Source of the DNA: Quadrisphaera setariae
Lineage (GTDB): Bacteria > Actinomycetota > Actinomycetes > Actinomycetales > Quadrisphaeraceae
DNA: 64,000 bases
Direction: 5' to 3'
Assembly (NCBI RefSeq): GCF_008041935.1
Contig: NZ_VKAC01000004.1
Location: forward strand, 310,001 to 374,000
Position 1 is the stretch's first letter. Each line of letters starts with the position of its first letter. Shown one piece after another: positions 1,581-14,701 of this stretch. The notes below the pieces were generated by a model. The model ran no database searches. It had not been told where the DNA came from and worked only from the letters and a program-made list of their open reading frames with translations. A program made the translations under genes and the position numbers.

Positions 1581-2042
1581 ATGGCTCACGGCCTGCAGAT
1601 CCACCTCCACCTCGACCGGGGGGTCCCCGTCCTGGAGCTGACGGGTGACCTGGACCTCACCACGGCGGACGAGCTGCGGGTGCACGGTCGGGAGCTGGTC
1701 GACGCGGCGCTGGACCGGACGCGCTCGGACGCCGCGGGCGTCTCCGAGCCACCCGCGGTGGTGGTGCTCGACGCGTCCGGGGTCACCTTCGTCGACTCCT
1801 CCGGCCTCGGTGCGGTGGTGAGCATCCTCAAGCGGGCGCTGGCGCACCGGGCGGGGTTCAGCATCGCCGGGTCAGGGCCCCAGCTGCGGGCCCGGCTCGC
1901 GCAGACCGGGCTCGACCGCGTGGTCGCGCTGCACGCCTCCACGGGTGAGGCGGTGGTCGCGGCCATCGGCCCGGCGGCCGATCCGAACAGGCGTATCCCC
2001 GAAGGAGGCCATCGCGCTGGCCGCGGTGACGGTGCTGGATGA
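1581..2042 (+). CDS. STAS-domain anti-sigma factor antagonist
   Basis: A 153-residue protein. Residues ~5-125 form a STAS domain: LELTGDLDL strand, then VVVLDASGVTFVDSSGLG, where the DSSG serine pair (about S73/S74) is the usual site of phosphorylation by an RsbW-type kinase. The ATG at 1581 has GGTGAAAG upstream; the longer open frame before it has atypical content. The last ~25 residues are basic and extend beyond the usual STAS end. The next gene is a SpoIIE/PP2C phosphatase in the same direction, the classical partner that dephosphorylates such antagonists. No anti-sigma kinase lies in the window, so the partner kinase and sigma factor are unknown. Confidence 0.9.
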   Translation: MAHGLQIHLHLDRGVPVLELTGDLDLTTADELRVHGRELVDAALDRTRSDAAGVSEPPAVVVLDASGVTFVDSSGLGAVVSILKRALAHRAGFSIAGSGPQLRARLAQTGLDRVVALHASTGEAVVAAIGPAADPNRRIPEGGHRAGRGDGAG

Positions 2043-2091
2043 CATCATCAGGACCGGCACGGAGGTGTCTGACAGCTCCTCCGGTTCCACA

Positions 2092-2113
2092 GACCCACCA
2101 CCCGGGGTGGGTC
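2092..2113 (+). terminator. Hairpin between the STAS and LOV-phosphatase genes
   Basis: A perfect 8-bp inverted repeat (2092-2099 with 2106-2113, 6-base loop) lies 50 bases after the STAS stop and 43 bases before the phosphatase start. There is no T-tract. It could terminate or attenuate transcription between the two genes, giving the antagonist more transcript than the phosphatase. Confidence 0.5.
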
Positions 2114-2155
2114 GGCGCCCCCGCTCCGGCGCTGACGACCACAGAAGGCGAGACC

Positions 2156-4579
2156 GTGATCGGCTCCGACCCCGTCGCTGCGGGATCACCCCCTGCCCGT
2201 CAGACCCCGGGCCGGACGGCGGCCGTGGTGCAGGTGCAGTCAGACGCGTCGGCGGCCGTCCTCATGGTGGACCTGCCCTCGCGCACGGTGCTGTACGCCA
2301 ACGACGTCGCCGCGCAGATGGCGCCCGGCCTGTCCCTCCCGGTCAGCGCCGACGCCTGGTCGACCGCGGCGGACCTGCGCGACCTCGACGGCGAGCCGCT
2401 GGACGAGACCGACCACCCCCTCTCCCGCATCGCCCGCTTCGAGCCGGTCGCCGGTCAGGGCGTGTCGGCCGCGCGCCGCAGCGACCTGGGCGAGCGCCGC
2501 GAGCCGCTGTGGGTGGTGGCGCTCCCCCTCGACGACGCCCCCAACCTCGCCGGCCACGCGCTGGTGGTGTTCCTGCCGGTGCGCGACCGCGAGGAGCTCC
2601 AGCAGCGCGCCGAGGACGCCCACGCCGCGAGCCCGTCAGCGGCGGAGGTGGGCACCTCCTCCTCCGGTGACGGCGTGGCCGTGCGGGAGGCAGCGGTGCT
2701 CGCCACGGGCCTGTCCTTCACCGTGGCGGACGCGCGCACGCCGGACATGCCGCTGGTCTGGGTGAACCCCGCCTTCACCGCGGTGACCGGGTACACCTTC
2801 GAGCAGACGGTCGGCACCAACTGCCGCTTCCTGCAGGGGACGGCCACCGACCGGTCCGCCACCGCCCGCATCCGCGCGGCGCTGCGCGCCGGGGAGCCCA
2901 TCACCGAGACGCTCCTCAACTTCCGCGCCGACGGCACCGCCTTCTGGAACCAGGTGGCCCTCAGCCCGGTGCACGACGCCGACGGTGTGCTCAGCCACTA
3001 CGTGGGCATCCAGACCGACGTGTCGGCCCGGGTGGCCGCGGACGCCGAGCGCGAGCGCGCCCTGGCCGCCGCCAGGGAGGCGCGCGCCGAGGCCGAGTCC
3101 GCCCGCGCCGAGGCGGAGGCGGCCCGCGCCGACGTGGAGGGCGCGCACGCGCGCCTGCAGCTGCTGGCCGAGGTGACCCGGCAGCTGTCGGAGGTGGTCG
3201 ACCCCCAGGCGGCGCTGGACCGGCTGGCGCACCTCGTGGTGCCGGGCATCGCCGACTTCGCCATCCTCGCCGTCGTCGCCGACGGGGTGCAGCTGCCCGT
3301 GCCGACGCGCGACAGCCAGCGGGCCGTGGCCTCCGGTGTGCGCAACGGACGCCTGGGCATGCACGACGTCGCCTGGTGGCACCGCGACCCGGAGAAGCTC
3401 GACGCGCTCGCCGAGCACGCCCGCCTCCGGCTGACCTCCATGACCCCCGAGGGCCGCCGGGCCCTGGCCTCTCTGGTGGGCCCCGACGCGCAGACCGTGC
3501 TGGCGCTCCCGGCTCAGGACGACGACGAGCGCGCGGCGACCACCGGAGTCGCTGCCGGCACCGGCGGCTCCGACGAGCCCGACGTCGTCGCCACGATCTG
3601 CTCGCTGCTGGCTCCGGGCCCCGCACGGACCACGATGGAGCAGCTCGCGCCGTCGTCGATGGTGACGCTCCCCCTGCGCAGCCGCGGTCGCACGCTCGGC
3701 CTCATGACGCTGGCCACGGACGGCGTGCGTCCGCCGCTGGGCCGCACCGAGCTGGCGCTCGCCGCGGACATCGCCGCCCGCGCGGGCCTCGCGCTGGACC
3801 GCGCGCGGCTGTTCCGCCAGCAGCGCGACCTGGCCGAGGGTCTGCAGCGCGCCCTGCTCGACCTGTCGCCCACGGCCGCGCCGGGGCACGTGAAGGTGGC
3901 GGTCCGCTACGTGGCCGCAGCGGAGGCCGCGGCCGTCGGCGGCGACTTCTACGACGTCTTCACCCAGCCCGACGGCGCCGCCGTCGCCGTCATCGGCGAC
4001 GTCATGGGGCACGACACCCAGGCCGCGGCGGCGATGTCCCAGCTGCGCTCGATCGTGCGGACCCTCGGCATGGTCGGCACCGACGACCCGCGCCAGGTGC
4101 TGACCCGCGCTGACGAGGTCATGCGCGCCTCCGGCGTGGAGACCACCGCGACCGCCGCCGTCGTCCGGATCGACGTCCTGCAGGACGGCGGGCCCGCGAT
4201 CGAGGGCGTGCCCGGCTCGGTGGAGGTGCAGTGGTCGAACGCCGGCCACCCGCCGCCGGTGGTGGTCGGCGCCGACGGCCGGGTCTCGCTGCTCGAGGCG
4301 AGGACCACCGACCTGCTCATGGGAGTCGACCCGCGCACCAACCGCCGCCTGCACCGCACGCAGCTGGCCCCCGGCGCGCTGCTGCTGCTCTACACCGACG
4401 GGCTGGTGGAGCGGCGCGGGCAGGCGCTCTCGGAGGGCATCGCCCGGCTGCAGGAGGTGGTCGCCGCGGCGGTGGCCTCCTGCGGTGACCTGGAGGAGCT
4501 GGTGGACGCCGTCCTCGAGCAGCTGCTCCCCGCGGCCGCCTCCGACGACGTCGCCGTGCTCGCCGTCTGCCTCAGCTGA
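2156..4579 (+). CDS. LOV (blue-light) PAS-GAF-SpoIIE PP2C phosphatase
   Basis: An 807-residue protein from the GTG at 2156, chosen because AGAAGG lies 7 bases upstream. Order: a divergent PAS-like segment (about 25-150); a LOV domain (about 180-292); a short coiled coil of Ala/Glu/Arg (about 295-330); a GAF-like region (about 335-545); a SpoIIE/PP2C phosphatase (about 555-807). The LOV domain has the photoactive motif NCRFLQG with Cys223, and the expected flavin contacts Asn255 (LLNFRADG), Asn265 (FWN) and Gln286 (GIQTD). The phosphatase keeps the metal-binding motifs GGDFYD, GDVMGHD, YTDGLVER and DDVAVLAV. Inference: blue light controls dephosphorylation of a STAS antagonist, probably the product of the preceding gene, and so a sigma factor. 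Light responsiveness needs testing, but no known LOV key residue is missing. Confidence 0.93.
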   Translation: MIGSDPVAAGSPPARQTPGRTAAVVQVQSDASAAVLMVDLPSRTVLYANDVAAQMAPGLSLPVSADAWSTAADLRDLDGEPLDETDHPLSRIARFEPVAGQGVSAARRSDLGERREPLWVVALPLDDAPNLAGHALVVFLPVRDREELQQRAEDAHAASPSAAEVGTSSSGDGVAVREAAVLATGLSFTVADARTPDMPLVWVNPAFTAVTGYTFEQTVGTNCRFLQGTATDRSATARIRAALRAGEPITETLLNFRADGTAFWNQVALSPVHDADGVLSHYVGIQTDVSARVAADAERERALAAAREARAEAESARAEAEAARADVEGAHARLQLLAEVTRQLSEVVDPQAALDRLAHLVVPGIADFAILAVVADGVQLPVPTRDSQRAVASGVRNGRLGMHDVAWWHRDPEKLDALAEHARLRLTSMTPEGRRALASLVGPDAQTVLALPAQDDDERAATTGVAAGTGGSDEPDVVATICSLLAPGPARTTMEQLAPSSMVTLPLRSRGRTLGLMTLATDGVRPPLGRTELALAADIAARAGLALDRARLFRQQRDLAEGLQRALLDLSPTAAPGHVKVAVRYVAAAEAAAVGGDFYDVFTQPDGAAVAVIGDVMGHDTQAAAAMSQLRSIVRTLGMVGTDDPRQVLTRADEVMRASGVETTATAAVVRIDVLQDGGPAIEGVPGSVEVQWSNAGHPPPVVVGADGRVSLLEARTTDLLMGVDPRTNRRLHRTQLAPGALLLLYTDGLVERRGQALSEGIARLQEVVAAAVASCGDLEELVDAVLEQLLPAAASDDVAVLAVCLS

Positions 4580-14332: not shown

Positions 14333-14701
14333 GTGGAGATCGCAGCAGAGCAGTACGACCGAGGCCGCTTCCGGGTCCTCGCGGTGAGCGGTGAGGTCGA
14401 CGTCTACAGCGCCCCGTCGCTGAAGAGCGCCCTCGTCGACGTCGTCGACACCGTCTCCGGCTCGACGGCGCGCAGCGCCGGTGGTGAGGCGGTCAGCGGC
14501 GTCGTGCTGGACCTGTCCGGGGTCACCTTCATGGACTCCGCCGGACTGGGCGTGCTGGTCGGGGCCAATCGCCGGGCACGCGACGCCGGGATGACGATGC
14601 GGCTGGCCGGCGGGTCCGTGCAGGTCCTCAAGCTGCTTGCCATGACCGGGCTGGCGAGCGTCATGCCGCCCTTCGACGACGTCGCCTCCGCCACCGCCTG
14701 A
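14333..14701 (+). CDS. STAS-domain anti-sigma factor antagonist (second)
   Basis: A 122-residue single STAS domain with VLAVSGEVDVYSAPSLK and VVLDLSGVTFMDSAGLGVLV, where DSAG carries the usual phosphorylatable Ser. It is clearly homologous to, but distinct from, the STAS protein at 1581-2042. The GTG at 14333 has AGGGGAC 7-9 bases upstream. The following genes are Ser/Thr kinases rather than RsbW-type kinases, and a palindromic repeat separates them, so co-transcription is uncertain. Confidence 0.9.
   Translation: MEIAAEQYDRGRFRVLAVSGEVDVYSAPSLKSALVDVVDTVSGSTARSAGGEAVSGVVLDLSGVTFMDSAGLGVLVGANRRARDAGMTMRLAGGSVQVLKLLAMTGLASVMPPFDDVASATA

Follow-up and report, generated by a model that had tools for sequence, protein, structure and literature searches.

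A LOV-SpoIIE phosphatase gene paired with an STAS antagonist gene in Quadrisphaera, probably a light-controlled version of the bacterial stress switch

The window discussed in this report is the whole stretch of DNA that was analysed, 64,000 nucleotides long (C4:310001-374000 of the 4.9-Mb genome of Quadrisphaera setariae). Close to its beginning two genes follow each other on the forward strand, the first for a putative anti-sigma-factor antagonist and the second for a phosphatase with several N-terminal sensory domains:

1581-2042, forward strand: STAS anti-sigma-factor antagonist (RsbV/SpoIIAA-like), 153 aa; Pfam STAS, 60.5 bits
2043-2155, forward strand: spacer with a hairpin (2092-2099/2106-2113), probably a leader that is not translated or a spacer inside a single transcript
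2156-4579, forward strand: PAS-LOV-GAF-SpoIIE/PP2C phosphatase, 807 aa, GTG start; family models, structure matches, predicted model
2255-2581, forward strand: N-terminal PAS domain, residues 34-142; predicted model, sub-threshold PAS_8 match
2711-3019, forward strand: LOV domain, residues 186-288, with the Cys223 codon at 2822-2824; PAS_9, solved LOV structures, model
3023-3190, forward strand: 56-residue helix (290-345) from LOV to GAF, signalling-helix candidate; predicted model, pLDDT mostly >89
3203-3718, forward strand: GAF domain, residues 350-521; Pfam GAF, model
3743-3856, forward strand: 38-residue helix (530-567) into the phosphatase domain; model
3890-4573, forward strand: SpoIIE/PP2C domain, residues 579-806, with GGDFYD, GDVMGHD, TDG and DD intact; Pfam, invariant columns, 3ke6 fold match

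The product of the first gene is matched above cut-off by Pfam (PF01740, E 1.5e-16, 60.5 bits; PF13466, E 6.5e-14) and falls slightly under the cut-off of the NCBIfam model ant_ant_sig (48.4 bits, cut-off 53.45). Its predicted phospho-acceptor is Ser73, within a VDSSGLG segment that fits the pattern D-S-[ST]-G; among the LOV-linked STAS copies the first serine of this motif is kept in all, and the second position is occupied by S, A or T. A model of the STAS protein predicted from the single sequence without an alignment reached a pLDDT of 39 and was not relied on. The Pfam family models bear out the initial description, made in a sequence-only reading of this DNA, of an STAS antagonist followed by a LOV-SpoIIE phosphatase.

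The two genes probably share one transcript. For the phosphatase, the GTG at 2156 is the favoured start, because the substitutions found upstream of it by comparison with two orthologues are spread nearly evenly over the codon positions and because a conserved ribosome-binding-site-like motif, GAAGGCGAG, precedes it (the start signal GAAGGCGAG-N3-GTG is kept in the orthologues). The less favoured start, an ATG in the same frame at 2039, shares bases with the STAS stop codon (ATGA) and would yield a form of 846 aa; its frame is open, over exactly 117 nt, in all three orthologous loci, but the pooled substitutions by codon position are 30:37:47 in these first 39 codons, against 174:154:638 in the body of the gene, with no protein-level constraint seen. 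The hairpin in the spacer, which the sequence-only reading had mentioned, does exist. No special significance can be given to it, as the spacer folds 1.63 standard deviations better than shuffled sequences (z -1.63), nothing unusual at this G+C content, and only one (L084) of the two orthologues compared retains the stem. The lack of a T-run, the weak z-score and the absence of the stem from the other (L077) are also the reasons for rejecting it as a terminator.

Ahead of the STAS gene lie two direct repeats of TGATCGACG (1499-1507 and 1525-1533, 26 bp apart), which recur with identical spacing in both orthologous loci (L077 and L084) and are nearly unique in the genomes of the genus, so that the pair might possibly be an operator. 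As the signature of a regulon the tandem was rejected, since beyond the three orthologous loci it had two hits, both in one species, and the one inspected was unrelated. Just upstream of the STAS/phosphatase pair, the opposite strand carries a gene for an ECF-type sigma factor (403-960) and, next in order, one for a likely regulatory partner (2-406). Elsewhere in the window, a further STAS gene at 14333-14701 is followed by two serine/threonine-kinase-like genes.

The domains of the phosphatase are recognized by the Pfam models for SpoIIE (PF07228, E 4.4e-38, 131.6 bits), PAS_9 (E 3.4e-18, across the LOV domain) and GAF (E 4.5e-5), and the LOV domain matches the sequences of solved LOV structures with E values down to 5.9e-33. 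In a fold search with the predicted model (mean pLDDT 86), the LOV part matched MrLOV (9vf8; TM 0.98 over 104 columns) and the PP2C part matched the RsbU domain of Rv1364c (3ke6) and the phosphatase domain of RssB. It is in this predicted model that the LOV fold is seen, as is the helical linker into the PP2C domain (530-567); the strands and helices at residues 34-142 likewise confirm the PAS-like segment that had been noticed ahead of the LOV domain. The predicted photoreceptor site consists of the adduct cysteine in a GXNCRFLQ motif and the flavin-contacting residues Asn, Asn and Gln, and its earlier numbering as Cys223, Asn255, Asn265 and Gln286 is right given the GTG start. These four residues, together with Asn222 and Gln227, are invariant in 92 of 92 homologues, and the same is true of the PP2C residues of GGD, GD (of GDVxGHD), TDG and DD, which agrees with the earlier description of a PP2C domain with intact metal motifs. 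The homologues were picked by similarity and are not an unbiased sample, so that their invariance supports constraint within a biased set. Relatives of the phosphatase at 55-84% identity occur in Quadrisphaera strains, an Actinomycetales MAG and a record named 'Streptomyces sp. NP160', and a search of plasmids for homologues found none. The loci L116, L119, L120 and L170 group with Quadrisphaera and Geodermatophilaceae-type loci; the names of the records that hold them (Streptomyces sp. NP160, Bacillus sp. AZ43) look wrong.

Within the genus, an STAS gene lies directly upstream and on the same strand at nine of the 13 LOV-PP2C loci. These nine fall into three paralogue groups: group A (the window locus, L077 and L084), group B1 (L076, L078, L085 and L081) and group B2 (L082 and L086). 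The loci L079, L080, L083 and L087 are without an upstream STAS gene. At all four B1 loci the STAS stop and the phosphatase start overlap by 4 nt (GTGA). The window genome (G000) holds two such pairs, that of the window and L076 (G000:C2:182142-184861), whose overlapping genes include one for a phosphatase 66% identical to that of the window. A chance origin of both pairs is very unlikely, because there are 18 STAS matches in 4.9 Mb, yet both LOV-PP2C genes have an STAS gene immediately upstream; the two loci are, however, related by duplication and not independent of each other. The 13 phosphatases form one genus-specific clade in the tree (support 100/100), and in the weakly supported STAS tree the B2 copies stand apart from those of A and B1. 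No adjacent STAS gene was found at the sampled loci of LOV-PP2C relatives in Kineococcus, Cellulomonas, Geodermatophilaceae and Actinomycetospora.

A fuller linkage occurs in Pseudonocardia, where a homologous LOV-PP2C gene lies next to, and points away from, an operon of three genes for an STAS protein, a HATPase_c_2 kinase and a SigB/F-type sigma factor. This arrangement was found first at L155, L158 and L194; among 20 further Pseudonocardia sigF-orthologue loci, eight have a LOV-PP2C gene with an intact NCR[FL]LQ motif beside rsbV, and the other 12 have none within the stretch fetched. All the parts of a partner switch thus lie in one locus in these Pseudonocardia homologues, but not at the window pair, which is without kinase and sigma factor. 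Since relatives keep the sensor beside a complete stress-sigma-factor switch, the STAS/LOV-PP2C pair is probably a light-controlled version of the same bacterial stress switch. The Quadrisphaera and Pseudonocardia linkages look like separate events, because Pseudonocardia is distant from Quadrisphaera in the tree and the other sampled lineages are without such neighbours. We lean slightly towards the broader view that actinobacteria wired a PAS-LOV-GAF-PP2C photoreceptor into RsbV/RsbW/SigF switches at least twice, by capture of an STAS gene in Quadrisphaera and by the divergent rsbV-rsbW-sigF arrangement in Pseudonocardia, as a stressosome-free blue-light route to a general stress sigma factor.

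Two sigma factors of the window genome score over the SigB/F/G cut-off. One of these, on contig C1 (SigBFG, 278 bits), has an RsbW-like gene directly upstream, the pair lying at about 581707-583077, which fits the earlier statement that neither the cognate kinase nor its sigma factor is encoded in the window. Genes for a kinase and a sigma factor of suitable type thus exist elsewhere in the genome, where the sequence-only reading had advised looking for a matching HATPase anti-sigma gene. The RsbW-like protein is divergent (46.5 bits for the RsbW model, with an equivalog cut-off of 145, and 24 bits for Pfam HATPase_c_2, with a cut-off of 27.4). Because the Pseudonocardia RsbW and SigF proteins both have the C1 pair as their best match in the window genome, it is the leading, though unproven, candidate target of the window STAS protein and phosphatase; the C1 RsbW, used as a query in three Pseudonocardia genomes, finds only the LOV-adjacent RsbW. 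Neither an STAS gene nor a phosphatase gene was found beside the C1 pair in the stretch read, so that a split arrangement would fit. The weak link in this assignment is the STAS protein of the window, which, judged by similarity (30% identity, E 0.003), is not orthologous to the RsbV of Pseudonocardia, several other STAS proteins of the genome being better matches. Besides its STAS matches, the genome has 19 SpoIIE matches (~18 genes) and dozens of HATPase matches, and crosstalk is therefore possible. Another SpoIIE phosphatase gene of this genome (G000:C6:262446-263452) is convergent with an STAS gene ~90 bp away.

It seems to us fairly probable that the two genes of the window pair feed light into a partner switch, in which the LOV phosphatase acts on the adjacent STAS protein and a sigma factor is released by way of an RsbW-type kinase. 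Blue light would lead to an adduct between the flavin and Cys223 in the LOV domain, and the resulting change might travel along the long helix and reach, by way of the GAF domain and the second helix, dimeric PP2C domains, whose activity would be altered and most likely raised. The phosphatase would then take the phosphate off Ser73 of the STAS protein, and the dephosphorylated antagonist would bind the RsbW-type kinase and free the sigma factor, with the C1 rsbW-sigF pair as the leading target; the PAS and GAF domains may contribute redox or metabolite input. In LOV proteins, adduct formation alters the helix that leaves the LOV core, and the counterpart here would be the helix 290-345. In RsbU, coiled-coil linkers dimerise and activate the PP2C domains, a route that diverse N-terminal sensors have been argued to share (PMC12143880); the modelled helices that flank the GAF domain fit such linker activation by analogy. 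The light-to-sigma-factor proposal of the sequence-only reading has gained from the STAS adjacency in three paralogue groups across the genus and from the Pseudonocardia rsbV-rsbW-sigF loci, and has lost the hairpin as support.

The phosphatase might be photoactive and yet have another STAS protein as its main substrate, for instance the RsbV-like protein encoded next to an RsbW-like kinase on C15, with the adjacent STAS protein serving a different partner. The 18 STAS matches, the position of the C15 protein rather than the window protein as the closest to Pseudonocardia RsbV and the many LOV-PP2C homologues without an adjacent STAS gene would suit such a choice of substrate, but we consider it unlikely in view of an adjacency that three paralogue groups have repeatedly retained, one of them with overlapping start and stop codons. 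It is also improbable that the switch ends in a HATPase with no sigma factor of its own, or that its target is something else than a sigma factor: neither of the two pairs in the genome has a sigma factor or HATPase gene directly beside it and stand-alone HATPase_c_2 proteins are many, but members of this phosphatase family are encoded next to rsbV-rsbW-sigF in Pseudonocardia, and the window genome has the corresponding rsbW-sigF pair. It is quite doubtful that the LOV domain serves chiefly as a sensor of flavin redox state or oxygen, or that light lowers the phosphatase activity in a dark-activated switch. The sequence does not reveal the sign of the response, and a LOV histidine kinase whose logic is inverted has been described (PMC12148442), but the invariance of the adduct cysteine and its surroundings in the 92 homologues argues for photosensor use.

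The preferred scheme, with the adjacent STAS protein as substrate, can be compared with several known systems. It has in common with the RsbP/RsbU-RsbV-RsbW-SigB switch of Bacillus subtilis a PP2C phosphatase that carries a sensor at its N-terminus and a helical linker, an STAS antagonist, an RsbW-type kinase and a SigB/F-type sigma factor, but the sensor is a LOV domain of the photoactive type accompanied by PAS and GAF domains, and the RsbW-SigF pair lies at another locus. Rv1364c of Mycobacterium tuberculosis (a PAS-PP2C-RsbW-RsbV fusion) is likewise an actinobacterial PAS-PP2C protein, and the fold search placed its RsbU domain (3ke6) among the top matches; Rv1364c joins kinase and antagonist in one chain, whereas antagonist and phosphatase are here the products of separate genes and the sensor has a complete LOV site. 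YtvA is also a LOV blue-light sensor that feeds an STAS/partner-switch pathway, with its LOV domain fused to STAS inside the stressosome, through which the light input reaches SigB and which the fusion of LOV to a phosphatase would, on sequence grounds, bypass. Partner switching and the light input through YtvA are textbook matters (PMC7522486), and LOV-SpoIIE fusions of bacteria, which share the combination seen here, have already been named as a class of LOV effectors in passages of PMC4844311. Those passages on LOV-SpoIIE mention no linkage with STAS or rsbW-sigF genes, so that the genomic wiring adds information, and no report of such linkage for LOV-PP2C genes was found in the open literature that the search covered, to which subscription papers did not belong. 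What appears to be new is thus that a LOV phosphatase is wired in a conserved manner to RsbV/RsbW/SigF modules, the fusion and partner switching being already known.

If the scheme holds, it would amount to a direct route from light to a sigma factor through two to four proteins, simpler than the stressosome route of YtvA. It would show how actinobacteria of leaves and soil that do not photosynthesize may link the expression of stress genes to daylight, and a compact optogenetic switch could be built from its parts. What bacterial LOV-SpoIIE proteins do can be tested directly on the Pseudonocardia loci, where every component is found in one place. The window genome encodes two further LOV domains. 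A third, short LOV-PP2C protein (L269; G000:C10:125470-126651) has GRNCRFLH, with His for Gln, and a loop insertion after the motif, and a fourth LOV domain (L268; G000:C8:174488-174832), with GRNCRFLQ, occurs in a protein with an EAL phosphodiesterase-like beginning.
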